From a bacterium (GTDB lineage Bacteria; SZUA-79; Acidulodesulfobacterales; Acidulodesulfobacteraceae): 41,389 nt of DNA. Of this stretch, positions 20 through 28,217 are shown piece by piece. The stretch spans positions 1-41,389 of the forward strand of contig JAKAPT010000006.1 in NCBI GenBank assembly GCA_021806885.1, read 5' to 3'. Numbering within the stretch: the stretch's first letter is position 1; the number at the start of each line of letters is the position of its first letter. The notes beneath the pieces were generated by a model. That model was not told the origin of the DNA, made no database searches, and worked only from the letters and a program-made list of their open reading frames with translations. Made by a program: the position numbers and the translations under genes.

Positions 20-1444
20 GTGGGCTTCCTTAAAAGTTTTTTGGGGGTTTCTTTCAGGATTAAGCTGGTCGGGCTTTTTATTTTCTTTACATTCCTTTGC
101 GGGATTGCCATTTTATACTTTGTTTTCTCGATTTACTTGAATGAGGCGATGCACGAAGAGATGCTCTTAAGCCAGTTTATCGCAAAAGAGCTGGCGGTCG
201 ATTCGAAAGGCTTTATGTTAAAAAAACATCCCCGGCAGCTCGATGCCCTTTTAGCGGGCGAACTTGCGGACAATGACAGGATACTTTACGCTTTCGCGGA
301 AAATAAAAAAGGTAAAATTTTTGCCTCCGCATTTAAAAAAGGTTTTTATTTGAATATTTTAAATTCCGGCAGATCGTTAAATATCTACGGCAGTAAAAGT
401 AATAACCATGACCTTTTATCGACGGTAAAGGTTACAAGCCCAGTTTACGGGGAGATTTACGATACCTCCGCGCCTATCCGCGGCGGCAAACTTGGAATAA
501 TGAGGGTCGGTCTATCGTTAAAATATGCGGGATACCGTTTTTTCCAAAAGTCCATTATATTTATATCGGTACTTATAATGCTTTTTATTATGCTGCTTTC
601 TATCTCCATCACGTTGATGCTTACCAATCCCCTAAAAAAAATTAATGAGGCTGTTCAGAGGATTAAAAAAGGCGATTATGATATTCATCTTAACGCCTCG
701 AGTATTTCGGAAAACGACGAAATAGGAAAGCTTTCTAAAGCTTTTAACGAGATGGCTCTTGGTTTAAAAGAGGCGGAAGACGAAAGGGATAAAAATGAAG
801 ATTTGAGGAAAAATTTCGTAAACAGAATTATTAATGCGCAGGAAGACGAAAGGAAAAATATATCCCACGGATTGCACGACAGGCTCGGCCAATTTCTTTT
901 CGCGGTGAAACTTAAACTTAGAATGCTTGAAGACCTTCACGATTTGAACGAAATAAAACCCAGGATTTTACAGATTAGGAAGGATTTAGACAACGGGGTA
1001 GAATTAATACACAAAATAGTTAAAGATTTAAGACCCCCGTTACTTGACGATAGAGGAATTGTTGACGCTATTATTGCTTATATTAACGATATGGCCAAAA
1101 ATAATGAAAACGTTAAAATAAATTTTTATCCTATTAATCTGGAAAATAATAGATTTAATAAAGAAATAGAGATTAATATCTACAGGATAATTCAAGAAGC
1201 GGTATTAAATAGTTTACGCCACGCGTATCCCAATAACATTACAATAATTATTGAAAAATACAAAGATAATATAAGGGGAGTTATCGTCGATGACGGGATC
1301 GGCTTTGAATGCAATAAAAATAATGACGGCCAGTTTGGAATAACCGGAATGATGGAAAGAGCAAAGTTGTTAGGTGGAGAATTGACGATCGAATCAGAAA
1401 AAGGGATCGGGACTGTCGTTAAATTTCGGATACCTACCGATTAA
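20..1444 (+). CDS. NarL-family sensor histidine kinase (periplasmic sensor, HAMP, HisKA_3, HATPase)
   Basis: GTG start after GGAGG; two TM segments, HAMP-like NPLKKINEAVQRIKKGDYD, H-box QEDERKNISHGLHDRLGQ, ATPase motifs DDGIGF and GIGTVVKF. Confidence 0.93.
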   Translation: MGFLKSFLGVSFRIKLVGLFIFFTFLCGIAILYFVFSIYLNEAMHEEMLLSQFIAKELAVDSKGFMLKKHPRQLDALLAGELADNDRILYAFAENKKGKIFASAFKKGFYLNILNSGRSLNIYGSKSNNHDLLSTVKVTSPVYGEIYDTSAPIRGGKLGIMRVGLSLKYAGYRFFQKSIIFISVLIMLFIMLLSISITLMLTNPLKKINEAVQRIKKGDYDIHLNASSISENDEIGKLSKAFNEMALGLKEAEDERDKNEDLRKNFVNRIINAQEDERKNISHGLHDRLGQFLFAVKLKLRMLEDLHDLNEIKPRILQIRKDLDNGVELIHKIVKDLRPPLLDDRGIVDAIIAYINDMAKNNENVKINFYPINLENNRFNKEIEINIYRIIQEAVLNSLRHAYPNNITIIIEKYKDNIRGVIVDDGIGFECNKNNDGQFGITGMMERAKLLGGELTIESEKGIGTVVKFRIPTD

Positions 1445-1474: not shown

Positions 1475-2128
1475 ATGACAAAGGTAGTTTTGGTCGATGA
1501 CCATAATATATTAATTTCAACCCTTAAAATGTTTTTAGATGCGCAGGATGATATTAATGTTGTAGGAACCGCTTCAGATGCGACGTTGGCGTTAGAACTT
1601 ATAAAAACAAAGCTGCCCGACGTTGTTTTGCTCGATATATCACTGCCTAAAATGAACGGCCTTGACCTCATTCCGAAAATAAAAAAAATCTCTCCGAATT
1701 CCAAGATATTAATGCTGACTATGCTCGAGGATAAAAAATATATGCAGGCCTCAATAGATTCAGGTGCTTCAGGCTTTCTGATAAAAAGAGCGCTGGATTA
1801 CGATTTAATTTATGCAATCCGGACTGTGGCAAGGGGTGAGATTTATATCCACCCCACCATGCTGGAAGACTTTATAAATATCGACGGTCACAGTGGATAT
1901 ACCCCGAACAAGGAAGAAATATTGTGGAATAGTTTGAGCAACAGGGAAAAAGAGGTCATGCTTGGCGTCGCCCAGGGTTTTACCAATAAAGAAATCGCTG
2001 AAAAACATTTTTTAAGCGAAAAAACTATTGCCACATACCGTTCTAGAGCTATGGAAAAACTTGGTTTTGAAAATAAATCTGAACTGATAGAGCTTATTTT
2101 TTTTAAACTTAAATTATTAAAAAAATAA
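1475..2128 (+). CDS. NarL/LuxR-family response regulator
   Basis: Receiver VDDH, LLDISLP, FLIKRA; C-terminal HTH LSNREKEVMLGVAQGFTNKEIAEKHFLSEKTIATYRSRAMEKLG. Confidence 0.95.
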   Translation: MTKVVLVDDHNILISTLKMFLDAQDDINVVGTASDATLALELIKTKLPDVVLLDISLPKMNGLDLIPKIKKISPNSKILMLTMLEDKKYMQASIDSGASGFLIKRALDYDLIYAIRTVARGEIYIHPTMLEDFINIDGHSGYTPNKEEILWNSLSNREKEVMLGVAQGFTNKEIAEKHFLSEKTIATYRSRAMEKLGFENKSELIELIFFKLKLLKK

Positions 2129-2206: not shown

Positions 2207-2307
2207 CTTTAATCCCCTTTTAACAAGTATTAAATTTAAAGTAATAAAGCGGCCCGATCAGAAGCAAAATTGTAAACTAATTCTAAAATTTGAGGCGAGG
2301 CAAAAAA

Positions 2308-2670
2308 ATGAAAAATACGTCAATTGTTTTTACAGCAATAATTATAGGCATTTACATTTCTTTATTGAACATGGCCCCGGTTTATGCCCTTACCGGAAAA
2401 TTGCTGTTCAGCAAGGAAGGGTGCATTATGTGTCATTCCATTAACGGCAATGGGGGGTCTTTAGGCCCAAACCTTTCGACGATAGGTAAAAAAAGAAGCC
2501 TGACATTTATTAAAAGAATGATTAAAAATCCATCTTTAAATTTTTTTACGCCTAATTCATGGGCCATAATTAATGGCAAAATCTATCGTTCCATCATGCC
2601 GGCGGGAAAGGGGAGGATAAGTAAGAACGACATTAACGCGCTTTCGGAATATCTTAAATCGCTAAAATAG
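2308..2670 (+). CDS. Small periplasmic monoheme cytochrome c
   Basis: ATG at 2308 preferred over the TTG at 2290 (GAGGCGAGG upstream); signal peptide; CIMCH motif; MPAG methionine region. Confidence 0.88.
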   Translation: MKNTSIVFTAIIIGIYISLLNMAPVYALTGKLLFSKEGCIMCHSINGNGGSLGPNLSTIGKKRSLTFIKRMIKNPSLNFFTPNSWAIINGKIYRSIMPAGKGRISKNDINALSEYLKSLK

Positions 2671-2743
2671 TTTTAGCTAAATTAAAAGGTTAACCTTAAT
2701 GCAGGTAAAATGGGGAAACGCATAATAGGTAAAAATTATTGTC

Positions 2744-4507
2744 ATGAAGACTATCAATAAAAAAAATATTCCATTATTTTCAGTATTTTCTTTGTTTATT
2801 TTATTATTGTTTTATCTATTGCTTTCCGTCATTGAAGTCAACGCGGGCGTTATACCTAAATTTAAAAATAGTGAATACAAAGAGCGATTCCATGGGCGTG
2901 AACTTTATAGAAAATACGGTTGCGCGGTTTGCCATGGGAAGCTCAGGTTTGGAAACTCCGCGCAGCCGCTATTACCTGAATTTATAGGCCGCTATTCCAT
3001 CTCCAAACTTAAATCCATTATATCCAATGGGTTGTCCCCGGTTCCTATGCCCTCTTTTAAGAATTTATCCAAAAAAGATTTATCAGACCTTGTAAGTTAC
3101 CTGGAAGAGCCTTCAAAAACTGTGCTCTGGACGAGGGCCGATATAATTAAAAGCCGCATAAAATTTCCGGGAATTAAAAACCCGGATATCAAACCTGTAA
3201 ACGTTAAAAATTTAATGGCCGCCGTAATAGGAGGAAGCGGAAAAATCTGGGTCCTGAAAGGGACTAAGATATTAAATAAATTCAATTTCGGCGATATCCA
3301 CGGCGGGTTAAAATATTCTCCTTCCGGAAGATATCTCTATCTTCCCTCCACCACCGGGTATATAGGCAAGTATGACTTTTATACCATGAAGCTGTCCTAT
3401 AAAGTCAGAGCCTGCCGTTATTTAAGAAATATATCCCTTTCAAAAGGGGGAAGGGATGTTATAGCCGCCTGTTGGCTTCCTGAGTCCATCGTAGTATTAA
3501 ACGCAAAAAATTTAAAGCTCGTAAAAAAGATATCCTTAAAACATAGGGTAAGCGTGATTTATGGATTATTCAGGAATAATATGGCGGTATTTTCGTTCAT
3601 GCATAAGCCGGTCATGGGCATATTGGATACCGGCGCATGGAATATCTCGTATTATAAAATCCCCGTTCCCTTTCAGGATTTTTTCGTGGACCCCTTAGAC
3701 GAATATGCCGTCGGAGGTTCATTTAAAGGGGGAAATATTTTTGCATTTAGCCTTAAGAAAAAAGAAATCGTTTATTCCGGTTCATCCTACGGAATTCCGC
3801 ACCCTGCTGGCGCGGCGTTCTGGTTTTATAGGGGTAAATTTTATTTTGCCCTTTCAAACCTCATTAAGCCTTTCATTTCCGTATGGCGGATGTACGACTG
3901 GAAGTTCATAAAGAACATATATACCGGCGGCCCGGGTTTCTTCGTAAAGACCAATCCTTACAGCAGTTACCTCTGGGCCGACAATAGTTCTGATGCGGTA
4001 GTTCTTATAAACAAGAATAATTTCCGCACTAAAAAAATAGTGATAAAAAAGAGGGGACTCATAATACATACACAGTTTTCCGGAAACGAAAGACTTGCAT
4101 ATATAAGCGATTACGGCAGACATGGCGAACTCGCGGTCATGAACGCGGCCACGCTAAAAATAATTAAAACAATACCGGCAAACGGCATAATAGGAAAATA
4201 CAATTACGTTAATTACCAGAGGATGAACGATGCCGCCCTTCTCGGAGAAGAGGTTTACTTTACCTATTGCTGGGGGTGCCACAATCCGACCCTTCAAGCC
4301 ATAGGACCTTCTTTTTCCTATATAGCCAGGCATATTAATAAGGCAGAGATAGAGGAACAGACAGCCCACCCCGGAAGAACCTCGAGATTATTGGGCTATA
4401 AGGCTAACGCCATGCCCGTTTTCGATTTGACTAAGCAGGAAATTAATGCGCTTATCGCCTTTATAAAGGATTCCGGAAACAGGAATTTCTGGAGGAACGG
4501 AAACTGA
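2744..4507 (+). CDS. Cytochrome d1-like beta-propeller protein (NirS/NirN-like) with N- and C-terminal c-type heme motifs
   Basis: Signal peptide; CAVCH near N-terminus; d1-like IHGGLKYSPSGRYLYL, PHPAGAAF, GPGFFVKTNPYSSYLWAD, GKYNYVNYQ; CWGCH near C-terminus. Confidence 0.8.
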   Translation: MKTINKKNIPLFSVFSLFILLLFYLLLSVIEVNAGVIPKFKNSEYKERFHGRELYRKYGCAVCHGKLRFGNSAQPLLPEFIGRYSISKLKSIISNGLSPVPMPSFKNLSKKDLSDLVSYLEEPSKTVLWTRADIIKSRIKFPGIKNPDIKPVNVKNLMAAVIGGSGKIWVLKGTKILNKFNFGDIHGGLKYSPSGRYLYLPSTTGYIGKYDFYTMKLSYKVRACRYLRNISLSKGGRDVIAACWLPESIVVLNAKNLKLVKKISLKHRVSVIYGLFRNNMAVFSFMHKPVMGILDTGAWNISYYKIPVPFQDFFVDPLDEYAVGGSFKGGNIFAFSLKKKEIVYSGSSYGIPHPAGAAFWFYRGKFYFALSNLIKPFISVWRMYDWKFIKNIYTGGPGFFVKTNPYSSYLWADNSSDAVVLINKNNFRTKKIVIKKRGLIIHTQFSGNERLAYISDYGRHGELAVMNAATLKIIKTIPANGIIGKYNYVNYQRMNDAALLGEEVYFTYCWGCHNPTLQAIGPSFSYIARHINKAEIEEQTAHPGRTSRLLGYKANAMPVFDLTKQEINALIAFIKDSGNRNFWRNGN

Positions 4508-5640
4508 TGTTAAGAATATCCAATTACATTAAACAATCGTTAAAAGATTTAAATTTAAATAACATTAATTTAAATAACCCGGGTGACAAATCGGCAGGAA
4601 AAAAGGAAGAGGGAAGGCTTTTATTATGGAATATAACCGGCGACTGCAATCTTTCCTGCGAACATTGCTATTCCTCCTCGGGGGCCGGTAGAAAGTATGA
4701 AAAGATAGCGCCGGGGGTTGTTCTTTCAACCATTGATTCTTTAAAGAAAGCAAAAATAAAATCGGTGATTATTTCAGGCGGAGAGCCGCTCATGTCGCCT
4801 TATATCTTCGAAATAGCAAGAATCCTCAAGGACGCAGGCTTTTCCGTGCATCTTTCCACTAACGGGACAATGATAAAAGAAAGCAATATAGAGAAAATAA
4901 AGCTTTTTTTCAACTACGTGGGCGTGAGCATAGACGGAAAGGAAGATACGCATGACGGTTTTAGAAAAATGAAGGGAGCGTTCAGGGCGTCGTTGAAAGG
5001 CATCAGGACGCTTTTAAATAACGGCGTAAACGCCGGTATAAGGTTTTCTTTAACCGAACGCAATTACCGGGATGTCGATTTTATATTCGATATGGCAAAA
5101 AACGAGGGTTTAAGGAAGGTCTACATTTCGCATTTAGTATACTCGGGACGCGGAAAAAACAGCTGGGATTTAAATAAATCCCTCCATAAGGAAATTTCTC
5201 TGTATATTATCGAAAAGGCTTTTGATTTTGTCAGTAAAAATATACCTGTTGAGATTGTAACCGGCAATAACGAGCCGGACGCGATTTTGCTTTTGGGAAT
5301 ATTTAAGAGATTATACCCGGAATTTTACGAAAATATATACGACAGGGTGTTACGTTGGGGCGGGAATCAATCCGGCAAAAAAATAATCAATATAGATTAC
5401 GCCGGAAACGTTAAGCCGGACCCCTTTTTTAATTATAACGCCGGGAATATTAAAAACAGGGACTTTCTCTATATTATAAACGAAGATAAATTGTTTTTAA
5501 AATTAAACGAAAAACCCAGGAAACTAAAAGGAAGATGCGAAAAATGCAGTTATTTAAATATTTGCAACGGCGGTTCCAGGGCAAGGGCTTTCGCGGTTTA
5601 CGGGGATTATTTTCAGGAAGACCCCGCCTGCTTTATGTAA
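4507..5640 (+). CDS. Radical SAM/SPASM protein, NirJ-like (heme d1 biosynthesis; AhbC-like alternative)
   Basis: NITGDCNLSCEHCYSSSG radical SAM motif; C-terminal CEKCSYLNICNGGSRARAFAVYGDYFQEDPACFM; start overlaps previous stop (TGATG). Confidence 0.85.
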   Translation: MLRISNYIKQSLKDLNLNNINLNNPGDKSAGKKEEGRLLLWNITGDCNLSCEHCYSSSGAGRKYEKIAPGVVLSTIDSLKKAKIKSVIISGGEPLMSPYIFEIARILKDAGFSVHLSTNGTMIKESNIEKIKLFFNYVGVSIDGKEDTHDGFRKMKGAFRASLKGIRTLLNNGVNAGIRFSLTERNYRDVDFIFDMAKNEGLRKVYISHLVYSGRGKNSWDLNKSLHKEISLYIIEKAFDFVSKNIPVEIVTGNNEPDAILLLGIFKRLYPEFYENIYDRVLRWGGNQSGKKIINIDYAGNVKPDPFFNYNAGNIKNRDFLYIINEDKLFLKLNEKPRKLKGRCEKCSYLNICNGGSRARAFAVYGDYFQEDPACFM

Positions 5641-6737
5641 CCTGTTCCGTTTTTATTTTTCTTATGTTGCCGTGGAAGTATGCGCTTGCCGGAAGGTACT
5701 ATGTCGTCGAAAGAGCGGCCGGCTCTCTCGGGATTATAACAAACAATAAATTGACGGGGGAGATAAAAAACCTGGGAAACGGAACGCACATAATAATTTA
5801 TTTCGGAAAGCATTACGGCTACGCCCTGAGCAGAAACGGTTATTTATCGAAAATAGACCCGGGAACCGGCAGAGTTATTTTGCAAAAAAGGGTTTCAAAG
5901 GATACCGTGGATTTTTGCCTGTCGGGAAAATATATCGCCGTGGCCAGTTATGTGCCGGAAGACGTTATAGTGCTGAATAAAAATCTGAAAGTTTTAAAAA
6001 CTATCAAAACTGGAGACAAAAATATCGGAATAGAGTTTTATAAAAATTACCTGATATTCGAACTAATGAATAAGGATAGGATATTAGCGTTGAATACCGC
6101 CGACAATTTTAAAATCGTAAAAACAGTAAATAATATCGGCAAAATGCCGATAGACGCGCTAATTTACAAAGGGTTTTATCTTTCGTCGTTTCTTTTGGGT
6201 CAAAAATTTGGCATGTTAAACTTAAATAATTTTACTTACAGGATAATAAGATATGGGAAAAAAGGGAAATTTACGCATCAGATACCCCATTATGGAATAT
6301 ACTCTGTCGATAACGATAAGGCATATATCCCCGCAGTAGGCGAAAAGAAACTGGAAGTAGTCGATTTAAAAACCGGCAACTTAACAGGTTCAGTGAATTT
6401 GCCCGGATTTCCCATATTTATAATATTTTCTCCGGACAGAAAAATTATAGCGATAAATTACAGTGGAGGCGCGCATGATTACTTGACCCTTATAAATGCC
6501 GGAAATTTACATGTCGTGAAGAATTTAAAGGCCGGAAGAAGGGTGATGTTTATGTCCTTTTCAAGAGGAAGCGGCCATATTTATGTTTCGGATTACTACG
6601 GAAACTCGGTGAATGTTTTTAATACAAGAAACGGCAAAGAAGTTTTCAAGATTCCTGTTCAGAGTCCTTCGGGAATATTCAGGGTGCCTAATAAATTATA
6701 TGAACAACAAAAAAAATTAGGGGGGAAAATTAAATGA
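5535..6737 (+). CDS. NirF-like d1-family propeller protein
   Basis: ERAAGSLGII, SRNGYLSKIDPGTGR, YIAVASYVPEDVIVLNKNL pattern as in NirF; signal peptide; start overlaps NirJ-like gene and exact start is uncertain. Confidence 0.75.
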   Translation: MRKMQLFKYLQRRFQGKGFRGLRGLFSGRPRLLYVTCSVFIFLMLPWKYALAGRYYVVERAAGSLGIITNNKLTGEIKNLGNGTHIIIYFGKHYGYALSRNGYLSKIDPGTGRVILQKRVSKDTVDFCLSGKYIAVASYVPEDVIVLNKNLKVLKTIKTGDKNIGIEFYKNYLIFELMNKDRILALNTADNFKIVKTVNNIGKMPIDALIYKGFYLSSFLLGQKFGMLNLNNFTYRIIRYGKKGKFTHQIPHYGIYSVDNDKAYIPAVGEKKLEVVDLKTGNLTGSVNLPGFPIFIIFSPDRKIIAINYSGGAHDYLTLINAGNLHVVKNLKAGRRVMFMSFSRGSGHIYVSDYYGNSVNVFNTRNGKEVFKIPVQSPSGIFRVPNKLYEQQKKLGGKIK

Positions 6738-7996
6738 AGAGAAAAAAAGGGGTGGACGAAGCGAATCGGAGCATATGCGGCCCCGCGCTTATAAAGCCAG
6801 AGGATTTACGCGGGGCGGAACGGGATGCCGGTGAAGCTCAGCGAAGCAGCGCGGAATCCGGCGCAACCCATGAAGACCCTGCGGGACAGGAAAAAACCGG
6901 GAACGAGAAAAACTCCGGCAGAAGAAAGTTTCTTAAGATGCTCGGTCTGGGAGGATTAGCGGCTTCAACTTTCGGGATATTCAGCTTATCGAAATCGAAA
7001 GAAATTTTAGCAGCCCCGTTAAAAAAAATCAAAGATAATGGGACAGGAATAAATTCTCCCGAAAAAGGTACGGGCATTACTACCGGTCCGTTAAAAAACC
7101 ACAGGTGGATGAACTGGATGAATCCGTCGCAGTACATAAAGGACGGATGGGACCAGTGGCAAAACACCATACAAAACCCTATGCGCGCGCGAGTTTTCCA
7201 CGATAAATTTTACAGGATAAAAAAGATAAGACCCAGGATACATCATTTTGTTTTTGTAATAGATGTTAACAAATGCGTTGGATGTCAGACTTGCGTGGTA
7301 AGTTGTAAAAACGAAAACGCGGTACCCCTCGGGGTTTTCAGAAGAGTAGTTGATGTTGTGGAGACAGGGGAGATGGTTCCGGATGAAAGAGGTATAGTCG
7401 CAACGGAAGAAGGAAATTACACTCCTAACGTAAAAAGATTTTTTCTTCCAAGAACATGCAACCATTGCGACCATCCCCCATGCGTAGAGGTTTGTCCCGT
7501 TAAGGCAACGTATAAATTAGAAACGGGACAAGTCGAAATAGATTACGACTTATGCATCGGATGCCTTACCTGCGTTCAGGCTTGTCCTTACAATATGAGG
7601 TTTGCAAATCCAATCCAGCATACGGCAGACAAGTGCAATATGTGCGCGGGAAGAGCAGCGGTTTCCCATGAAAAATCTTATACGCCTCTTTTGCCAACAT
7701 GTGTTACTTCTTGTGTCGGAAGGGCTATGAAATTCGGAGATACAAACGATCCCAACAGCGAGGTTTCAAAATTGATAGCAAATAACAATGTTTCAAGGCT
7801 GAACGTCGAGTTCGGCACCGATCCGCAGGTTTACTATATTGGCTTAGACGAGAATATCGTAAACTCGGCCAATCCCGATAAGGCGAAGATGGTTTACACT
7901 TATACAATGGGTTTAATGGCTTCTTCTTATGAAAAACTTGGCGGAAAACCTGTGCTTTCATATTTAGAAGAAAGAGAATACCCTTATGCAGGTTAA
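6734..7996 (+). CDS. 4Fe-4S ferredoxin subunit of a molybdoenzyme (TtrB/PsrB/DmsB-like) with internal Tat-like motif
   Basis: CVGCQTCVVSCKNEN, CNHCDHPPCVEVCP, CIGCLTCVQACP, CNMCAGR...CVTSC; RRKFLKMLG Tat-like motif after a ~65-residue hydrophilic N-terminus; ATGA overlap with preceding gene. Confidence 0.92.
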   Translation: MKRKKGVDEANRSICGPALIKPEDLRGAERDAGEAQRSSAESGATHEDPAGQEKTGNEKNSGRRKFLKMLGLGGLAASTFGIFSLSKSKEILAAPLKKIKDNGTGINSPEKGTGITTGPLKNHRWMNWMNPSQYIKDGWDQWQNTIQNPMRARVFHDKFYRIKKIRPRIHHFVFVIDVNKCVGCQTCVVSCKNENAVPLGVFRRVVDVVETGEMVPDERGIVATEEGNYTPNVKRFFLPRTCNHCDHPPCVEVCPVKATYKLETGQVEIDYDLCIGCLTCVQACPYNMRFANPIQHTADKCNMCAGRAAVSHEKSYTPLLPTCVTSCVGRAMKFGDTNDPNSEVSKLIANNNVSRLNVEFGTDPQVYYIGLDENIVNSANPDKAKMVYTYTMGLMASSYEKLGGKPVLSYLEEREYPYAG

Positions 7997-8029
7997 TTTT
8001 AACTATTTTTAAACAAAGGAGTGCATAAC

Positions 8030-9298
8030 ATGTTTCATTATGTGAACCCTCTTGCAATTAACGGTTCTTACGGAACCCTCGAAAACGTTTACTGGGGGCT
8101 TCCGATAGTAACTTATCCTTTTCTTTCCGGGCTGTTAGCCGGGTCTTTCGTGGTCGGGGCATTGTATCATCTTTTCCATGTAGAAAAGCTTAAGCCCGTT
8201 TCGCAGCTTTCTTTAATAGCGAGCTTTGCGATGCTTTTGCTTGCCGCCATGGCGCCCTTAGCGGACGCGCTTCAACCCTCCAGGGCGATATGGGAGCTGT
8301 ATTTTAGAGACCATTTTCCCTACTCCCCTCTGGGGATGTTTATTATTATCTGGACACTTTTTGTCATAGCCTTTCTTTTCGAGCTATATTATCTTTTCAG
8401 GGAACACAATATTAAAAGAGCGCGAGAGGATAAAGGAATAAGGGGTAAGGTATCCGCAATTCTTACGCTTGGAAGCAGGGACATGTCCTCAAAAAGTATT
8501 TCAAGGGACCATAAAGCCCTCTGGATAATATCCATTATCGGGATTATTCTCTCTATCCTGTTTCACGGTTATGTCGGATTTTTATTTGGTGCCATCAAGG
8601 CAAGGGCGCTATGGTCGGATCCAGTCATACCTCCTATGTTTATCGCATCGGCGGTTGTATCTGGTATTGCTTTCGTTGGATTATTGTACGGCATCGGCTT
8701 TTCTTTATTTTCCGATAAAAATAAAATCGAACCTGACACCCTGGATGTCCTCAACAAGTCCTTAGTTTTTGCGATATTTGCCGACCTCTTTTTCGATTTA
8801 ATAGAGTGGCTTTATTCGGTTAGAGGATATAGTTCTAAATCTGTGTACGATAATTGGCACGAAGTATTTTCCTTTTCGGGTCGCGGCCCGTTATGGTTCA
8901 ATTATCATGTTTTACAGATAGGACTCGGGCTTATAATCCCGGCGTTTTTATTTCTTGTTTTTAAGAAAATCAGAAGGTCGTTAGTCTGGACGTTAATTAT
9001 AGATTTTATCGTTACGGTAGGCGTGTTCGAAATGAGGTTCGATACCGTGATAGGCGGTCAGCTTCCGGCAAAGATAGGTCAAGGAGTGGTTAATTTGCAT
9101 ATCCCCTTCCTGCTTTTTGACGGATATTTAACGAATATAGGGCTCTTTGGAATGGGCATTATGCTTATATTCATTTTTGGGTATTTTTTGGGTTGGGAGC
9201 ATGACCCGGAAGAATTGAGCTTACCCCCTAAGCCCGCGTACAGGTTTGAATGGGATGGAACGGAATACCGGGAGGAAAAAGATAAGGACGCAAAATAA
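8030..9298 (+). CDS. NrfD/PsrC-type membrane anchor subunit
   Basis: Multiple TM helices, YWGLPIVTYPFLSGLLAGSFVVGALYHLF; AAAGGAG upstream of ATG 8030 (ORF track start is GTG 8021). Confidence 0.9.
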   Translation: MFHYVNPLAINGSYGTLENVYWGLPIVTYPFLSGLLAGSFVVGALYHLFHVEKLKPVSQLSLIASFAMLLLAAMAPLADALQPSRAIWELYFRDHFPYSPLGMFIIIWTLFVIAFLFELYYLFREHNIKRAREDKGIRGKVSAILTLGSRDMSSKSISRDHKALWIISIIGIILSILFHGYVGFLFGAIKARALWSDPVIPPMFIASAVVSGIAFVGLLYGIGFSLFSDKNKIEPDTLDVLNKSLVFAIFADLFFDLIEWLYSVRGYSSKSVYDNWHEVFSFSGRGPLWFNYHVLQIGLGLIIPAFLFLVFKKIRRSLVWTLIIDFIVTVGVFEMRFDTVIGGQLPAKIGQGVVNLHIPFLLFDGYLTNIGLFGMGIMLIFIFGYFLGWEHDPEELSLPPKPAYRFEWDGTEYREEKDKDAK

Positions 9299-9327: not shown

Positions 9328-12300
9328 ATGTCAAAGAATAAAATGAATAGAAGGGATTTTCTTAAATGGGGATCGTTCGGGGCTATGGCGGTTGCCACAG
9401 GAGCCGGTCTGACGCAGTGGGCGGGCGGAGTGTTTCATTACGTCGGAAAATATACATTTCCACGCCGGCCTGAAACATGGCCGGGTGAGATCGCGAAATA
9501 CTCCACATGCGAGCAATGCCAGGGCAATTGCGGAATAATGGCAAGGGTTTTTAACGGAACCTTGCTTAATATTTGGGGTAATCCTTACGATATACAAACC
9601 ACGGAACCAAATATAAAATATTCCTCTCCCGCAGTAGGGTCCATAATCTATACAGGGACGTATTATTCTCCGGATAAGCCTTTCGTTGACGGCGCACACT
9701 CCGTATGCTCAAAAGGCTCAGCGGGTACCCAGACCGCTTACGACCCCTACAGGATTTACATGCCCTTAAAAAGGGTCGGCGAAAGGGGCTCCAGGAAGTT
9801 TAAGGTAATTTCGTACGAACAGCTTATAAACGAGGTGGTAAACGGAGGATACCTTTTTAAAGATGTTCCCGGCGAAGAAAAACGTTTCGTCGAGGGGTTC
9901 AGGCATCTCTGGAACGGGGGCAGGAACCGCTTCATTCCCGCAGATTCAAAACATCCCGATTTTGGCCCTAAAACTAATCAGTACGTAAGTTACTGGGGCA
10001 GGGCCGATGATGGCCGGGCAAATTTCATAACTCGATTCGGAAATGCCCTCGGCTCGGTAAACGCCATACCGGATGTTTCCATATCCGAACCTTCGTATCG
10101 CGCTTCTACTTTCATGACCTATCCCGGAACAAATATGCTGAAGCCGGATTTGCCGAATTGCGAGCATCTCATGGTATTCGGAGCAAATTACTTAGAGTCC
10201 AATTTACCTATGCAGACCCTGGCGAGGAGAACGGTAAGCGCCACATCGAAGGGCAAGTTGAAGGTAACGGTGATAGACGTGAGGGGGGGTAATATGCTCG
10301 CGCATTCGGATAAATATATACCGGTTAAACCCGGTGGGTACGGGGCTCTGGCAATGGGCATGCTCAGGTGGATAATAGAAAATAAGCGCTATGATGAGAA
10401 CTTTCTCACAAACCTTAACCATAAGGCGGCAAACGCAAACGGCGAACCTAATTTTTCAAACGCTTCCTATCTTATAGTCAGTGACGAAAACAATCCAAAT
10501 TTTGCGGGATTTTTGAAAAGTGGAAATTCATTTTACGCAATCGACAAGTTTTCCGGGAAGCCGGTTCTAACGGCGGCGGCAGAAAAAGGCGATTTGTGGC
10601 CTACAGGATTTTTATCCCTGACCCCCGTTAACGTAAACGGCGTCAACTGCGTGACAAGCATGCAAATGTTATGGAGCGAACTCGTCAAGCATACCCTGGA
10701 TGAATACTCGAAGGAAGCAGGGTTGACCCCCGGGGCTATGCCGATACAGGAACTGGCGGGAGAATTTACTTCACATGGGAAAAAGTCTGTCGCCGATTAT
10801 TACAGGGGTCCGGTGAAGGATACTAACGGATATTACTACGGCAGGGCAATTCAGCTTTTAAATGTTATGGTAGGGAACGTAAACTGGCAGGGAGGGTATA
10901 TAAACGGCGGCGGGAGCGCTAATATTATGGGCGGATACGGCTACCCTTACGATTTGAAAAAATGGCCCGGATTTGTTCAGGCAAAAGGCGTAAAAATTTC
11001 AAGAGAAGGTTCGTTCTATGAAGACACCATGGAATATAAAGAAAAATTAACAAGAGGCGTTTCTCCATATCCCGCGAGGAGGCCATGGTTCCCCTTCAGC
11101 TCCGGCATGGCGCAGGAAATTTGGGGAGGAACGTATTTCCAGTACCCGTATCCGGTAAAGATACTTTTCCAGCATATGGCAAATCCCGCGTGGTCCATGC
11201 CCGGAATGGGGGGCGTAGACGATGAGTCCAAGCCCTGGATGCAGATGATAAAAGACACGACAAAAGTTCCTTTGTTTATCGCGTCCGATACCATGGTTTC
11301 GGAAAGCTCCGCATATGCCGATTACATAGTGCCGGATACGACATATTTGGAAGGATGGGGTTTTTCCGGCAACTTGTCGATGTATCCGACGGCAAGAACC
11401 TCGGTAAGGCAGCCTGTTATAGAACCCATGACGGAAAATACGCCCGACGGAAGGCCTATATGCATGGAAAATTTCCTGATAGACGTCGCAAAAAAACTTG
11501 GGCTTCCGGGGTTTGGCGAAAACGCATTTCTGGAAGGAGGCAGTTTAAACCAAAGGGAGGATTATTATTTAAAAATGGCGGCGAATATAGCTTATGATTC
11601 TAAGACTTTTCTTAAGAAAAAAGGAACCGGTTTCAGGCATTTAGGCCCGGTGCCGGATGGCAATTCCTTCGAGATCGGAACCGTTAAGGATTATATGAAA
11701 AAACACGGCAAGGCCATTAAGCCTGCGGAATGGAAAAAAACGGCTTATGTCGTTTCAAGAGGCGGCAGGTTCGAGGATTACGATGTAGGATATCTTCCTT
11801 GGGGAAAACCGAAATGGGTGACGCATCTCTGGTCGCCGGATACGCCGGTTCAGTTATATAACGAACAGGTGGCTACAACCCATGACGCAATAACCGGCGA
11901 GAGATTTAACGGAACCACGGTATTACTGCCCCATAGGAATATGAAGGGCGAGATTTTAGATGTAAAGTATCCCATGGCGGAATACCCATTAATGGTTTCC
12001 GCCCACAAACAATCCATCCACTCAATGTCAAATACTATGAGAAACCCATGGCTACAGGAACTTTTGCCCGGCGCTTTCTGGGAGATCGGCGCGATAGATG
12101 CCAGGAAATTAGGATTATACGACGGAGATACCATAAGGGTGGTATCGCCTACGTATCCGAAAGGGATTACCCACAGGGTAAGAATCATGCCTTCGGTAAG
12201 GCCGGGTGTAATCACTGCGGCTAACTCCTTCGGAAGATGGCTTTACGGTTCGGGTGAGTGGTATATAAACGGAAAGAAATATACCGGAGATCCAGCAAGA

Positions 12301-12441
12301 AATCAGGGGGTTCATCCTGCCGCCTTATTCCTGCTTGATAATTCTATAGCCGCTAAAGACGGCTGGACCACCGTGTTAACCGACCCTGTTGGCGGTTCCA
12401 TGGCACATTACTATGCGCCTGTTAGAATAGAAAGAGTTTAA
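9328..12441 (+). CDS. Molybdopterin oxidoreductase catalytic subunit (DMSO reductase superfamily, Tat-exported)
   Basis: RRDFLKWGSFGAM Tat motif; C61-x2-C64-x3-C68-x58-C127 FeS motif; HLMVFGANYLESN; C-terminal molydop-binding region. Confidence 0.95.
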   Translation: MSKNKMNRRDFLKWGSFGAMAVATGAGLTQWAGGVFHYVGKYTFPRRPETWPGEIAKYSTCEQCQGNCGIMARVFNGTLLNIWGNPYDIQTTEPNIKYSSPAVGSIIYTGTYYSPDKPFVDGAHSVCSKGSAGTQTAYDPYRIYMPLKRVGERGSRKFKVISYEQLINEVVNGGYLFKDVPGEEKRFVEGFRHLWNGGRNRFIPADSKHPDFGPKTNQYVSYWGRADDGRANFITRFGNALGSVNAIPDVSISEPSYRASTFMTYPGTNMLKPDLPNCEHLMVFGANYLESNLPMQTLARRTVSATSKGKLKVTVIDVRGGNMLAHSDKYIPVKPGGYGALAMGMLRWIIENKRYDENFLTNLNHKAANANGEPNFSNASYLIVSDENNPNFAGFLKSGNSFYAIDKFSGKPVLTAAAEKGDLWPTGFLSLTPVNVNGVNCVTSMQMLWSELVKHTLDEYSKEAGLTPGAMPIQELAGEFTSHGKKSVADYYRGPVKDTNGYYYGRAIQLLNVMVGNVNWQGGYINGGGSANIMGGYGYPYDLKKWPGFVQAKGVKISREGSFYEDTMEYKEKLTRGVSPYPARRPWFPFSSGMAQEIWGGTYFQYPYPVKILFQHMANPAWSMPGMGGVDDESKPWMQMIKDTTKVPLFIASDTMVSESSAYADYIVPDTTYLEGWGFSGNLSMYPTARTSVRQPVIEPMTENTPDGRPICMENFLIDVAKKLGLPGFGENAFLEGGSLNQREDYYLKMAANIAYDSKTFLKKKGTGFRHLGPVPDGNSFEIGTVKDYMKKHGKAIKPAEWKKTAYVVSRGGRFEDYDVGYLPWGKPKWVTHLWSPDTPVQLYNEQVATTHDAITGERFNGTTVLLPHRNMKGEILDVKYPMAEYPLMVSAHKQSIHSMSNTMRNPWLQELLPGAFWEIGAIDARKLGLYDGDTIRVVSPTYPKGITHRVRIMPSVRPGVITAANSFGRWLYGSGEWYINGKKYTGDPARNQGVHPAALFLLDNSIAAKDGWTTVLTDPVGGSMAHYYAPVRIERV

Positions 12442-12464: not shown

Positions 12465-13136
12465 ATGATAACAGTATGTATAATTGACGGCTATTCAATG
12501 TTATTAACCGCATTAGAGGCCCTGCTTGACGGCCAGGATGATATAAAGGTATTAGGAACCGCAACGGATGAGCAGTCCGCAGGTAGTCTCATAAAATTAA
12601 AAAAGCCGGAAATTATATTACTTGATATATCTTTATCCGACGACGACAGTTTCGATTTAATCCATCAGTTTAAGAAGATTTCCCCCGGCTCAAAAGTATT
12701 AATATTGGCGACGCGTGAAAATGTCGAATATCTTCGCACATGTTTTAATCTTGGCGCGTCCGGCTTCTTAGTAAAAAAAGCTATGAATTTCGATTTGATA
12801 TATGCAATCAGGACCGTAGCAAGAGGAGAAATCTATATATACCCTTCGCTGATAAAAAAATTTTTAGCCGATGATAAAAAATCCGTTATTGATTCAAATA
12901 TTCAAAGTAATAATTCAAGAGAAAAATTTTTATGGGAAAGCTTAAGTTTAATGGAAAAAGAAGTAATGATTGAAATTGCAAATGGTTTTACAAATAAAGA
13001 GGTTGCCGAAAGGCACTTATTGGAGGAGAAAATCATTGCGGCGCATCGTGTAATCGCAATGAAAAAATTGGATTTAAAAAAGAAATCCGACATTACAGAA
13101 CTGATTTTATCGAAACTTAAAATAACCGGAAAATAG
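12465..13136 (+). CDS. Divergent NarL/LuxR-family response regulator, paralog of 1475-2128
   Basis: Collinear with first regulator (DLIYAIRTVARGEIYI, GFTNKE); acidic pair reduced to IDGY and HTH substitutions. Confidence 0.88.
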   Translation: MITVCIIDGYSMLLTALEALLDGQDDIKVLGTATDEQSAGSLIKLKKPEIILLDISLSDDDSFDLIHQFKKISPGSKVLILATRENVEYLRTCFNLGASGFLVKKAMNFDLIYAIRTVARGEIYIYPSLIKKFLADDKKSVIDSNIQSNNSREKFLWESLSLMEKEVMIEIANGFTNKEVAERHLLEEKIIAAHRVIAMKKLDLKKKSDITELILSKLKITGK

Positions 13137-13381: not shown

Positions 13382-14041
13382 ATGAATAAATTTATTTTTC
13401 TTGTTTCGCTTTTCTTTCTTGTTGCGATTTTAGGCCTGAACAATTTAGCGTTTGCCACAGGCTCCGGCGCTAAACTTTTCAAAGATTATTATTGCATCGA
13501 CTGCCACACTCTGGGACATCAAGGAGGAACGGTCGGTCCAAACCTTTCTAATATAGGGAAAACGAAGAGTCTTACGTGGATCGAGTCCCAGATATCTAAT
13601 CCGAGTAGTCATTTTACAAGAGGGTCGAACACAAAAATCAACGGAAAGATTTACCTGGTTAGAATGCCCGGCTTCAATAATATTCCGGATTCGGTTGCCG
13701 ATAAACTGGCTGAGTATATCAAGACTTTTCCGTCCGTATTGTCAAATTTAAGCTATAAAAGGCCGCCGGAGGGCATGAGACTTTTCGAAAAGGATAACTG
13801 CGTCGCGTGCCACAGGATAAACGGTATTGGAGGAAAAGTAGGCCCAAATCTTTCGCATATCGGAAAGACAAAAAGCCTGTCCTGGATAGAAACGCAGGTG
13901 GTAGATCCGAAGGTTCACTTTAGATATGGTCTTGGCGTAATTATCGACGCTCATACTTATCTTGTTATGATGCCCAGTTTTAAAGATATTCCTGACTCGC
14001 AACTTAATGTAATAGGCAGGTATCTTGAATCGTTAAAATAA
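13382..14041 (+). CDS. Di-heme cytochrome c with two tandem paralogous domains
   Basis: Signal peptide; CIDCH and CVACH; both domains share GPNLS.IGKTKSL.WIE.Q. Confidence 0.92.
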   Translation: MNKFIFLVSLFFLVAILGLNNLAFATGSGAKLFKDYYCIDCHTLGHQGGTVGPNLSNIGKTKSLTWIESQISNPSSHFTRGSNTKINGKIYLVRMPGFNNIPDSVADKLAEYIKTFPSVLSNLSYKRPPEGMRLFEKDNCVACHRINGIGGKVGPNLSHIGKTKSLSWIETQVVDPKVHFRYGLGVIIDAHTYLVMMPSFKDIPDSQLNVIGRYLESLK

Positions 14042-14105: not shown

Positions 14106-14420
14106 ATGCAGTGCAAGAAATTATTGACCATTGCGGGTATCGCGGCTTCCCTTATGCTTTTAACCGCTCCTATGGCCTTTGCGGCTTCCGGCTCGAGCCT
14201 GTTCGCAAAAGAAGGCTGCATGGGCTGTCACACCATCAACGGAGCAGGCGGTTCCATGGGTCCCGACCTTTCCCATGTCGGCAGCAAGAAAAGCGAATCG
14301 TGGCTTAAGAAGCAGATAACCGACCCTAATTCTCATTTCCCCGGAGGCTCTATGCCCTCTTCCCAAATGTCCGGCGCACACCTTAAAGCTCTTTCAAGCT
14401 ACCTGGAATCCTTAAAGTAA
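14106..14420 (+). CDS. Monoheme cytochrome c
   Basis: AGGAGG upstream; signal peptide; CMGCHTINGAGGSMGPDLSHVG; GSMPSSQM. Confidence 0.93.
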   Translation: MQCKKLLTIAGIAASLMLLTAPMAFAASGSSLFAKEGCMGCHTINGAGGSMGPDLSHVGSKKSESWLKKQITDPNSHFPGGSMPSSQMSGAHLKALSSYLESLK

Positions 14421-21949: not shown

Positions 21950-22221
21950 TTACGCACAATCCTCCAAAATTAAATAAATGGTTCCGATATTTTTAATATT
22001 ACCATTATTAGCCGGCATTTCCAAAAAAGATTGGACTCGGTGAAAACTTGGCTCGGCGACGCTGTAGATGGCCGGGCAGGGCTGCATATTTATTTTTTGA
22101 TACGGGCGCTCAGCTTGGTCAAGCCAATCGGTGAACCGGAATCGAGGCTCTTTGCGCAGTATTTATAAACTTAGACCTCACAATGATTATCGGGATGAGT
22201 TAATTTACCGCGGTTTAAAGG

Positions 22222-22297
<76 letters not shown>

Positions 22298-22351
22298 ATT
22301 AAATTTTGATTATATTAGCACAAAAATTATTATAATTCAAATAATTTTCCG

Positions 22352-23443
22352 TTAGATTTCTTCCGCTTCCGCAGCCAGGATTCTTTCACCGGAAATTTCA
22401 ATCAGAGACCTTGCTTTTATCATTTTCAGCACGCCGAAAGTGCAAAGGTCTTTGCAAAGATTGCAGCCGGTGCAGAGGAACGGCTCCAGGTATATCCCCC
22501 TGTTTTTATATTTTAAGGCTTTGGTCGGGCAGAGCTCCCAGCAATTCTGGCAAAAAACACAGTCCTTGTTAATTTTTGGCAATCTTATGTTGAAAATAGG
22601 CAAAAGCCCCGGATTATTTTTTATAGATAAAAAAATATTTTTTTGCTCACGCAATAAAAGCCGGTTAATTTTTGGTTCGCCGTTATTTGAAGGAGTTAAG
22701 AATTGGGAATAAATCTCGTAAAAAGGAAGGTTTTCCGGAGACAAATCACCTGCTATTTCCTTTGCCCTGGATTTAATCCCTTTTAAAGAATTCTTAAAAA
22801 ACTCCCTCCGGCGTAATAATTCTTCTTCGGGTTTTTTCCCGTCATCCAGGGCACCATTATTTTCCACGGAGGAACCTTTTTCCTCCGTTTCCATCCGGGG
22901 GGCCGTGAAATCAAATTGTTCAAAAGGAATCTCCTCGAAAAAATAAGAATCCCCGAAGAATTTGAAAATATCTTTTATCCTTTTTATCTTTTTAGCGTAA
23001 AAATATTCAAATTTACAGTCACCGCAATCGCCTTTTATAAGGGTAATTTTTTTTCCGTTATGAAAGCGGGAAATAATATCCCGGTCATTAATTTCGTAAA
23101 GGCAGGTAATTTTTTCATCGTCTTTAATTTCTCCCTCGCCTGCAATATCGTTCACCCTTGAACAGAAATAATACCTTCCCGTAGCCGGCTTTTCTTTTTT
23201 GTTTTTCTTAAAATCAAAAACATAGTTGGGGCACATATACACGCAGGCGCCGCAATTATCGCAGGAATCAAGTATTACGATAGAGTCGTCCGAGATATTT
23301 ATCGCCTGCTTCGGGCATTTGTTTATGCACTCATAGCAGCCTGCCATAGGGCTTTTCAGCCTTACGCAGAAATCCTTTGCTATGGTTATGCCCCGTTCCT
23401 CGCCGCCGTTTAAAAACCTTTCTAAAAGCCATAATAAATTCAT
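22352..23443 (-). CDS. Polyferredoxin-like 4Fe-4S protein
   Basis: CYECINKCP, CDNCGACVYMCP, CVFCQNCWELCP, CTGCNLCKDLC. Confidence 0.88.
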   Translation of the reverse strand: MNLLWLLERFLNGGEERGITIAKDFCVRLKSPMAGCYECINKCPKQAINISDDSIVILDSCDNCGACVYMCPNYVFDFKKNKKEKPATGRYYFCSRVNDIAGEGEIKDDEKITCLYEINDRDIISRFHNGKKITLIKGDCGDCKFEYFYAKKIKRIKDIFKFFGDSYFFEEIPFEQFDFTAPRMETEEKGSSVENNGALDDGKKPEEELLRRREFFKNSLKGIKSRAKEIAGDLSPENLPFYEIYSQFLTPSNNGEPKINRLLLREQKNIFLSIKNNPGLLPIFNIRLPKINKDCVFCQNCWELCPTKALKYKNRGIYLEPFLCTGCNLCKDLCTFGVLKMIKARSLIEISGERILAAEAEEI

Positions 23444-23571
23444 TAGTATAATTATAACCGATTTCCTGGAAGTGTAAAAGAGTGCTGAGACGACCCCAAT
23501 AATCTAACTTTTAACACTAGCTGGTCATTATGATTGCCTGTGAGGCAAGATTATAATAAAATAAATATATT

Positions 23572-24516
23572 ATGATTTCCAATATAAAGGCTGTTCTTGC
23601 CCCTATGGCGGGTATAACCGGCTATCCCTTAAGGAAAATAATGATTAAATACGGCGCGCCGTTTTGTTATACGGAAATGATAAGCGCCCAGGGACTCTTA
23701 TACGGCGATAAGGGGACAAAGGAACTGGTTTATTCGGGCGGACTAATGGAGGAAACAGGACTTCAGCTATTCGGCAGCGATCCCGTTTCCCTTTCGGAAG
23801 CCGCCAAAAAAGCCCATGGATTAGGTTTCGAAGCAATTGATATAAACATGGGATGCCCGGTAAAAAAGGTTGTTAAAACAGGCGCGGGCAGCGCCATTCT
23901 TAAAGATATGGAAGTTCTTGCCAGCATAATAAGAAATGTAAGGAATGCCGTCAAAAATACTTTTCTTACGGTCAAGATGAGGAGCGGTTTCGAGGAAAGG
24001 GATCTTACCTTCCTCAAGGCGGCCAAAATCGCGGAAACAGAAGGGATTAACGCCATATTTTTTCATCCAAGAACCCGCTCCCTGATGTTCGGTGGCAACG
24101 CCGATCATTCGCTCACTAAGAAGCTAAAACAATATGTCAGTATTCCAGTTTACGCGAGCGGAGACATGTTTACGGCGGCGGACAGCCGCAGGGTGCTCGA
24201 AGAAACGGGAGCGGACGGCGTGCTGTTCGCCAGGGGGGCGATAGGAAACCCTTTAATTTTCAGGGAATTCTTCTTTCCGGAGGACCCGGAAAGCTCTTCT
24301 TTTTTCCGGAAGGCATCCGTACTTCTTGAGCTTATGGAAGAAATGGGCGCGTTTTACGGAAAAGAAAGGGGGGCAATGTTGATCAAGCCCCACCTGTATA
24401 ATTTTCTCAAGGGATTTAAAGGATCAAAAGAGTTAAGATGCAAATTAAATTCCGCGAGTAATGAAAAGGATATCGGGAAAATTCTTGAGGAAGCGCTTGC
24501 CTTAAAAAACCCTTGA
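23572..24516 (+). CDS. tRNA-dihydrouridine synthase (DusB-like)
   Basis: APMAGITGYPLR, DINMGCPVKKVVKTGAGSAIL, TVKMRSGF, FARGAIGNP. Confidence 0.94.
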   Translation: MISNIKAVLAPMAGITGYPLRKIMIKYGAPFCYTEMISAQGLLYGDKGTKELVYSGGLMEETGLQLFGSDPVSLSEAAKKAHGLGFEAIDINMGCPVKKVVKTGAGSAILKDMEVLASIIRNVRNAVKNTFLTVKMRSGFEERDLTFLKAAKIAETEGINAIFFHPRTRSLMFGGNADHSLTKKLKQYVSIPVYASGDMFTAADSRRVLEETGADGVLFARGAIGNPLIFREFFFPEDPESSSFFRKASVLLELMEEMGAFYGKERGAMLIKPHLYNFLKGFKGSKELRCKLNSASNEKDIGKILEEALALKNP

Positions 24517-26522: not shown

Positions 26523-28160
26523 TTACCTGAAGGCGGCATAATACCATTTTCTTATGTTATAACCTATTCCCGCGGGCGCCGGCACCACGCCTTTTATCCC
26601 GCTTTTTACGACCGGCATGGAATAAGGGATGTATAAGAAGGTATATGGTTCCTGTTCGGCAAGTATCTTTTGAATCTTGAAGTAATAAATTCTTTGTTTT
26701 TTCAGTTCAAAAGTTGAGCGTGCCTCCTTGAAGAGCCTGTCTATTTCATTGTTTCTGAACGAGGTGAAATTAAGCCCTTTAGGCACTATATCCCTGCTTG
26801 AAAATATTGCGGCGTTGTCGTATGGTTCCGGGGTTATCGTGAACCCGAGCAGTACAGCGTCGAACCTTTTTTTCATTATGAATTCAGATATAAGGGACGT
26901 CCATTCCATAACCCTTATATTCACCTTTATGCCGATTTTTTTCAGGTTCTGTTGAATTATCTCAGATGCCTCCAGCCGCTCCGCGTTTCCCTGGGGTGTC
27001 AGGATTGTAAATTCGAACCGCACGCCGTTTTTCGTAAGGTGGCCGCCCGCCCCGATGTGCCAGCCCTTACCGTTCAGGAGCACGAGCGCCTTCTTTGGGT
27101 TATAATCGAATTTCCTGACATTTTTATCGTAAAAATATGTTCCCGGCATAAATGGGCCGTAGCAGGGTATCCCAAGCCCCAGGAGGGCCCCTTTTATTAT
27201 TTCTTTTTTATTTATTGCATAGCTTAAGGCCTGCCTTACCCTTACGCTTTTAAAAAGCGGGTTCAACAGGTTATATCCCAGGAACGTAAAGCCAAGAGAC
27301 GGGTGTATGTATTTCCGGAAATTCCTGTTAAAAATTTTATCCGTCGTTTCATACCTGTACTGGAGGGGGGTTAAGCCCATGTAACCTATTCCGTTTGATT
27401 TAAGCATTAGAAACATCGAGGACGAGTCCGGAACGATTTTGTAAATCAGCCATTTTATGTGGGGCGGACCCATGAAATACGACCTGTTTGCCTTTAATAT
27501 TATTTCATAGCCGTGAACCCATTTATAAAACGTATATGGTCCGGTGCCGATCGGATGGCTCCTGATTTTTGTCGTGATAAGATTTTTTCCCTTAAGCAGA
27601 AACTCCGGAAGGATGCTTAATCCCCAGGAGGAGAGTGCGGGCGCGTAGGTTTTTTTATAAGTTACCTGGAAAATATATTTTCCGATGGTTTTTGCCTTTA
27701 GCACCTTAAGATAAGGCGACGCGTAGGCCGTCGGGGTTTTGGGGTTCACCATAAGCCTGTATGTAAACAGAACATCCTTGGCCGTAAATTTATGACGCCC
27801 GTTTTGCCAGTAGACATTATGCCTTAAATAGAACGTTATTGTTCTCCCGTCCTTGCTTATTTTCCAGGATCTGGCGAGGTCAGGAACTATTTTAAGGTTT
27901 CTGTTATAACGCACAAGCCCGTCATATATCTGGGAGGTTACCTCAGCGGTGGGTTCGTCCTCGGCCAGATTTCCTATAAGGTTGGTCGCGTCGGCGCCAA
28001 GCCCGATAAAAAGCGAATTTTTTCTGATACCGGAGGGATTGCCCCGGTTTTTCCCCGGCCTGCTGATTCCTTTAAGGCTGAAAATAAGCGCTATTACGCC
28101 AAAGAAAACGACCGCAAAGATCGGGAGGAAAAGGTATTTATTTTTTTTAGGCAAAAACAT
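26523..28160 (-). CDS. Peptide/oligopeptide ABC transporter substrate-binding protein (SBP_bac_5)
   Basis: N-terminal TM; QIYDGLVRYNRNLKIVPDLARSWKISKDGRTITFYLRHNVYWQNG. Confidence 0.9.
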   Translation of the reverse strand: MFLPKKNKYLFLPIFAVVFFGVIALIFSLKGISRPGKNRGNPSGIRKNSLFIGLGADATNLIGNLAEDEPTAEVTSQIYDGLVRYNRNLKIVPDLARSWKISKDGRTITFYLRHNVYWQNGRHKFTAKDVLFTYRLMVNPKTPTAYASPYLKVLKAKTIGKYIFQVTYKKTYAPALSSWGLSILPEFLLKGKNLITTKIRSHPIGTGPYTFYKWVHGYEIILKANRSYFMGPPHIKWLIYKIVPDSSSMFLMLKSNGIGYMGLTPLQYRYETTDKIFNRNFRKYIHPSLGFTFLGYNLLNPLFKSVRVRQALSYAINKKEIIKGALLGLGIPCYGPFMPGTYFYDKNVRKFDYNPKKALVLLNGKGWHIGAGGHLTKNGVRFEFTILTPQGNAERLEASEIIQQNLKKIGIKVNIRVMEWTSLISEFIMKKRFDAVLLGFTITPEPYDNAAIFSSRDIVPKGLNFTSFRNNEIDRLFKEARSTFELKKQRIYYFKIQKILAEQEPYTFLYIPYSMPVVKSGIKGVVPAPAGIGYNIRKWYYAAFR

Positions 28161-28217
28161 TAAGGTTATATTATCTCAGAGCGGCAGGATTTTTCAACGC
28201 AAAAATGTTAATTGGGG

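Follow-up and report, generated by a model that had tools for sequence, protein, structure and literature searches.

A TtrA-clade subunit predicted to have lost its molybdenum cofactor in a bacterium of the Acidulodesulfobacterales

A review of the MopB family of molybdoenzymes marks three independent losses of the molybdenum bis-pyranopterin guanine dinucleotide cofactor (Mo-bisPGD), in ActB, Nqo3 (Nqo3/NuoG) and FhcB, and lists cysteine as the molybdenum (Mo) ligand for the entire clade of TtrA, SrdA and the archaeal arsenate reductases; serine and aspartate are ligands in other MopB families, and AioA is a MopB enzyme that works with Mo held by no amino-acid ligand (PMC10100899). QrcB has no cofactor (PMC13059093, PMC6303296), and modules of an iron-sulfur (Fe-S) protein and an NrfD-type protein pair with non-Mo partners, including QrcCD with the cofactor-less QrcB, and ActBC (PMC6303296, PMC13059093, PMC5928083). 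A crystal form of NarG that is free of the molybdenum cofactor (Moco) and has the FS0 cluster and a guanine nucleotide also exists (PMC5123574). We found no description of a Mo-free TtrA in the open-access literature. In this study, we analysed a 41,389-nt stretch of bacterial DNA (hereafter the window; contig JAKAPT010000006.1 of assembly GCA_021806885.1), which encodes a TtrA-clade large subunit beside TtrB-like and NrfD-like proteins. This subunit probably represents a Mo-free lineage that is kept as a non-catalytic part of a TtrB-NrfD-TtrA complex.

The window protein shares with TtrABC, of the TtrA/SrdA/archaeal alternative arsenate reductase clade, its best NCBIfam family, its length class, the signal for twin-arginine translocation (Tat), the FS0 motif and the TtrB/NrfD gene order. 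The top model was NCBIfam TtrA (555 bits, residues 58-1037), followed by PhsA (151 bits), and Pfam Molybdopterin and Molydop_binding both matched. Identity was 60-83% to proteins of the same type and 31-37% to Klebsiella TtrA and others. Sequence kinship, the FS0 cysteines, the TtrB and NrfD/TtrC partners and Tat export all agree with the TtrA clade. Unlike TtrABC, however, the window protein has a serine (S253) instead of the ligand cysteine, has neither His249 nor Asp338, is encoded in a genome without a Moco pathway and scores far under the equivalog cut-off of 1750 bits. A serine at the ligand position is typical of the Ser-ligated dimethyl sulfoxide (DMSO) reductase group (DmsA, TorA, BisC), but the DmsA/YnfE model gave only 118 bits versus 555 for TtrA, placing the closest kinship elsewhere, and five genes for the cellular synthesis of Mo-bisPGD, a further requirement for that group, are absent from the window genome.

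Three Mo-free systems offer comparisons of another kind. QrcB of QrcABCD from sulfate reducers is also a cofactor-free MopB subunit beside a four-cluster Fe-S protein, an NrfD-type protein and a c-type cytochrome; however, it contains no redox cofactor at all, forms a separate family (NF041783, for which the window protein scored 47 bits against a cut-off of 440) and works with the hexahaem QrcA, whereas the window protein keeps the FS0 cysteines and is accompanied by small mono- and dihaem cytochromes. ActB1 of alternative complex III, likewise a MopB domain without Mo, belongs to a quinol:cytochrome c complex that includes NrfD-type subunits, but ActB is fused to its Fe-S subunit, B1 has no prosthetic group and the partner is the pentahaem ActA, none of which is seen in the window. 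NuoG/Nqo3 of complex I is a MopB subunit that lost Moco and can retain N7, the equivalent of the FS0 cluster, yet it is cytoplasmic, belongs to the NADH pathway, has unrelated partners and lost Moco long ago. The window thus has the arrangement of QrcB and ActB (a ligand-less MopB subunit with four-cluster Fe-S, NrfD-type and cytochrome c genes) by analogy and not by membership, and by this analogy its protein probably resembles them in its way of working and would stand for a loss of its own within the TtrA clade.

A first-pass annotation of the window, made from the sequence alone, had pointed out that the Fe-S cysteines C61, C64, C68 and C127 are followed by no Cys until C278 and that D249, S251 and S253 lie in the segment where a Cys ligand is usual. 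These observations stand: the protein has Cys only at 61, 64, 68, 127, 278, 441 and 712, residues 128-277 are Cys-free, and the numbering is correct, with SVNAIPDVSISEPSYR beginning at residue 243. In a profile alignment to solved structures, the family Cys253 aligned to C153 of ArrA chain 6cz7 and to C173 of PsrA 2vpw. We take C153 of 6cz7 to be ArrA C193, and ArrA C193 and PsrA C173 to be the published Mo ligands, so that S253 occupies the place of the Mo ligand. D249 and S251, which had also been considered as ligands, are disfavoured by position: Asp249 occupies the site of a His, invariant in the relatives, four residues before the ligand position, and the Cys-type relatives, too, have Ser at residue 251 (Ala in two of them).

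The change is not confined to one residue. Every homologue examined has Cys at the ligand position, and both the His and the Cys of the loop are retained in distant homologues from Citrobacter, Halobellus and Azospirillum and in Klebsiella TtrA. The window loop reads DVSISEPSYR, versus HVSIC(E/D)L(S/T)HHV or HVAVCELTHHV in the relatives. Six of the 121 residues invariant in a broad homologue set are altered in the window protein, including H249, C253, D338 and N998, and the first three do not vary among homologues ranging from Klebsiella TtrA to haloarchaea, the window protein being the only exception. A set of 14 same-phylum relatives agree at 517 columns; the window protein departs from them at 41 of these, comprising 13 of 25 in the FS0 loop (58-72), residue 129 and the Mo-ligand loop (245-265) and 28 of 492 outside them, and no relative exceeds two changes within these loops. 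With a common set of eight orthologues, 13/31 loop positions versus 47/668 outside positions were changed (Fisher p = 2e-7), although the loop boundaries were picked post hoc, with the alignment already seen, and the p-values are therefore illustrative. The altered FS0 residues are those between the cysteines, the counterpart of a NarG loop that contacts the pyranopterin and guanine portions of Moco (PMC5123574), and the four Cys themselves are unchanged. Judged from the alignments, the cofactor pocket around S253 appears to have been eroded as a whole and not exchanged for a Ser- or Asp-type motif.

The window comes from a metagenome-assembled genome (MAG; G000) of 1.38 Mb in 82 contigs, with a completeness of 99.56% and a contamination of 0.02%, which we compared within a set of 30 genomes (G000 included) of one family in a small phylum. 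Most of these carry dsrA, which fits Candidatus Acidulodesulfobacterales (PMC6776010). A search of this nearly complete genome found none of MoaA, MoaC, MoaE, MoeA and MobB, while the other 29 genomes have MoaA in 28, MoeA in 28, MobB in 28, MoaC in 27 and MoaE in 24, and G000 is the only one of the 30 without both MoaA and MoeA. The joint absence of the five leaves the cell without any known route to Mo-bisPGD or its tungsten form. The window protein is also the sole match of G000 to PF00384 (the molybdopterin fold), of which the relatives have one to six.

The loss can be read in the window itself, the right half of which is colinear with the Moco region of the relatives minus the moaC-sdhABC block, mobB and a moeA/mobA/FdhA cluster. 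Relatives of three genera have the order solute-binding protein, moaC, sdhABC, a small gene, der, rnc, MtaB-like and mnmA, and the best-covered relative continues with iscS, iscR, cysE and macB; from der (28218) onward the gene order in the window is the same. In all four relatives examined mobB adjoins a Dus or ferredoxin-like gene, and window positions 22352-24516 hold both genes without mobB. The moeA/mobA/FdhA cluster lies beyond a P-type ATPase gene in two relatives and is absent from the window, whose P-type ATPase gene has atpBE, a Rieske/cytochrome b set and the TtrA operon on its far side. The window ATPase (19544-21949) is only 48% identical to the Moco-region ATPase L061:10848-13160, so the rearrangement is less securely bounded on the left than on the right. 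Because a single contig runs across both the moaC and the mobB sites, the absence of these genes from their key places cannot be put down to incomplete binning.

Several further observations concern the Moco region and other parts of the genomes. A tRNA-Phe (GAA) gene lies on the minus strand at window positions 22222-22297, inside the gap of the rearranged mobB neighbourhood. A loss of sdhABC along with moaC was considered and rejected, since G000 has sdhABC on contig C60, without moaC, beside dsr and other sulfur genes (they look like sat, apr and dsr). Its sdhA (L070:7706-9464 on G000:C60) apparently has a frameshift near residue 463 that divides the gene, either a sequencing error or the mark of a pseudogene. 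A MopB protein of 847-852 amino acids (aa) is encoded near moeA in relatives (L060:8294-10837, L061:1446-3989, L066:7004-9562 and L069:1785-4328); it is 89-95% identical across genera, almost universal in the phylum and absent from G000. A molybdopterin protein of 1003-1010 aa with one in-frame TGA, carried by relatives (G008:C1:713392, G011:C11:48454, G018:C43:3398 and G023:C50:1044) is possibly a selenocysteine formate dehydrogenase.

Relatives of the window protein are present in about half of the 30 genomes and in a Nitrospirae MAG; none was found in the viral contigs searched. The tree places the window protein inside the group of operon orthologues (support 97/96); its end branch is 0.19 long, compared with 0.04-0.07 for its three nearest neighbours. 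The loss of Mo was probably independent and fairly recent, within the TtrA clade, as far as sequence comparison can tell. Some genomes carry a second, Cys-type TtrA paralogue (L037, L043 and L044). For L037 and L044, which have enough flanking sequence, the c-d1 cytochrome, NirJ and D1 genes are missing, yet these copies group with the c-d1-operon copies in the tree, which suggests gene conversion or repeated loss.

The operon common to eight relatives encodes a kinase, a regulator, cytochromes c, a c-d1 cytochrome, a NirJ-like protein, a D1 propeller, TtrB, NrfD, TtrA, a regulator and a dihaem cytochrome (Table 1). TatC is encoded in the window genome, and TtrA and TtrB retain twin-arginine signals. 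We propose that the polypeptide folds without Mo-bisPGD and that Tat would export the subunit with its FS0 cluster, where it would complete the TtrB-NrfD module as a non-catalytic scaffold or relay. NrfD and TtrB may then exchange electrons with the quinone pool on one side and the operon's c-type cytochromes on the other, comparable to QrcBCD and ActBC, and the reduction of tetrathionate or a similar oxyanion would have been lost. Haem d1-type genes (window 2290-6737) share the operon with TtrB-NrfD-TtrA in eight relatives, so that a haem d1-type system travels with a complex of tetrathionate-reductase type. The c-d1 protein retains H186, H353 and H442; a suspected loss of its haem d1 site (H346G) was rejected, the His in question not being aligned to a conserved NirN His.

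Table 1. Features of the window, in order of position
Feature	Position	Strand	Basis or remarks
Sensor histidine kinase	20..1444	+	Pfam HAMP, HisKA_3, HATPase_c; 5' end possibly truncated by contig end
LuxR-type response regulator	1475..2128	+	Pfam, conserved operon position
Monohaem cytochrome c (CIMCH)	2290..2670	+	Start probably ATG at 2308; homologues at same place in relatives
NirN/NirS-like c-d1 cytochrome with second, C-terminal haem c domain	2744..4507	+	PDB best match 6rtd (1.7e-50); Pfam Cytochrom_D1
NirJ-like radical SAM protein	4507..5640	+	TIGR04051 350 bits, cut-off 515
D1-type beta-propeller (NirF/NirN-like)	5535..6737	+	Pfam Cytochrom_D1 4e-19
TtrB-like four-cluster Fe-S subunit, Tat signal	6734..7996	+	NCBIfam TtrB 185 bits
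NrfD/PsrC/TtrC-like quinone-interacting membrane subunit	8021..9298	+	Pfam NrfD 2.3e-36
TtrA-clade (MopB) large subunit, predicted Mo-free	9328..12441	+	1037 aa; Tat signal MNRRDFLK
FS0 [4Fe-4S] loop C61-E-Q-C64-Q-G-N-C68	9508..9531	+	Cys retained; K62E, H65Q, S66G, D67N (alignment of 15 same-phylum proteins)
C127, fourth FS0 Cys, and K129 (Arg in close relatives)	9706..9714	+	Alignment
Degenerate Mo-ligand loop NAIPDVSISEPSYRASTFMTY, residues 245-265	10060..10122	+	H249D, C253S, L255P, H257Y, H258R, V259A, R263M, F265Y
Codon TCC for S253, replacing the Mo-ligand Cys	10084..10086	+	Aligned to ArrA C193, PsrA C173
Y338, replacing Asp of the MopB-family PG(T/G)D motif	10339..10341	+	Asp invariant in 9 broad homologues and ArrA, PsrA, Fdh
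Second response regulator of the conserved operon	12465..13136	+	Operon comparison
Dihaem cytochrome c (CIDCH, CVACH)	13382..14041	+	Sequence; kept downstream of TtrA in relatives
Monohaem cytochrome c (CMGCH)	14106..14420	+	Sequence
mobB-less stretch between P-type ATPase and Dus genes	21950..23571		Holds only tRNA-Phe and a ferredoxin-like gene
Solute-binding protein	26523..28160	-	moaC neighbour in relatives; 73-76% identity to copies in L059, L062, L065, L068
Junction of 57 bp, solute-binding gene to der	28161..28217		Relatives have moaC-sdhABC-hypothetical gene there; internal to contig
Der GTPase	28218..29534	-	Neighbour of moaC-sdhABC block in relatives; 54-60% identity

The best-surviving alternative, though an unlikely one, is that the gene is non-functional and not yet broken, a dead enzyme decaying after the loss of Moco. 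The window TtrA is indeed the fastest-changing orthologue, with 60 unique changes versus 10-27 in the others over the 699 columns of the eight-orthologue set, and the apparent frameshift in sdhA of G000 could belong to the same picture. However, all 1037 codons of ttrA are open, and the pairwise ratio of nonsynonymous to synonymous substitution rates (dN/dS) between the window and its relatives is about 0.05-0.08 (about 0.07 as a single figure), similar to that of relative-relative pairs, at dS >1.5. The changes cluster in the pocket and are not evenly spread, and the FS0 Cys, TtrB and NrfD remain constrained: all 16 of the 16 cluster Cys of TtrB are retained, and NrfD, altered at 1/144 invariant columns (3/243 with the common orthologue set), is not accelerated.

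The first-pass annotation had favoured a different explanation, in which the enzyme would still be active, hold Mo through Ser253 (or Asp249) and have a chemistry like that of DMSO reductases or Nar. We consider this very improbable. S253 stands exactly at the ligand position, the gene is intact and both residue types serve elsewhere in the family, but none of the five Moco proteins is encoded, with moaC and mobB gone from their syntenic sites, and His249, Asp338 and FS0-loop residues were lost together with the Cys, leaving a loop that looks like a worn Cys-type copy and resembles no Ser- or Asp-type enzyme that we recognise. The broader expectation of a chemistry unlike that of a normal tetrathionate reductase is supported, as is the observation that a Ser stands in place of the Cys ligand.

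A still smaller chance attaches to an artefact, in the form of a sequencing error, a chimeric contig or Moco genes missed through MAG incompleteness. A MAG in 82 contigs invites this concern; nevertheless, the codon differences are many scattered in-frame substitutions, a block to which base-calling error does not apply, so that the loss of the Cys also survives comparison with the orthologues. The high completeness and low contamination, the joint absence of five genes and the read-through of the moaC and mobB sites inside one contig argue in the same direction. Least probable of all is that the enzyme is active with Mo held by no protein residue and is supplied with cofactor or precursor by neighbouring cells: AioA gives the precedent, but it belongs to a different clade, further pocket residues are lost in the window protein, and we know of no import system for Moco.

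Some points weigh against the reading as a retained Mo-free subunit. The example of AioA means that a missing Cys proves nothing by itself. Saturation of dS makes selection before and after the loss of Mo inseparable. Compared over equal orthologue sets, TtrA outside the loops changes faster than TtrB and NrfD taken together (47/668 versus 12/459, p = 0.001), which could be early decay; constraint on TtrA is relaxed, not gone. The evidence comes from a single MAG in many contigs, the sole genome of its genus in the comparison, and the assignment of the changed residues to the pocket rests on alignment because an AlphaFold2 model built from the window protein and 15 relatives was poor (pLDDT, the predicted local distance difference test, of 37) and was discarded.

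Taken together, a Mo-free, non-catalytic subunit of the TtrB-NrfD-TtrA complex remains the probable reading. Whether it marks a recent conversion to a working Mo-free quinone/cytochrome electron-transfer complex is an evenly balanced question, with the FS0 cluster kept, Cys-type sisters of about 80% identity in the same operon and the loss of Moco readable in the flanks. The losses in ActB, Nqo3 and FhcB are ancient without exception, and each sits in a remodelled complex. Here, about 17-20% of residues separate the Cys-type from the Mo-free version, the two share an operon and the loss of the cofactor pathway shows in the same contig, and the transition from a catalytic molybdoenzyme to an electron-transfer scaffold is thus directly testable between sister proteins. 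Annotation by homology would label G000 a reducer of tetrathionate (or a similar oxyanion), and surveys restricted to sequences with the expected ligand (as in PMC10100899) would miss such cases.

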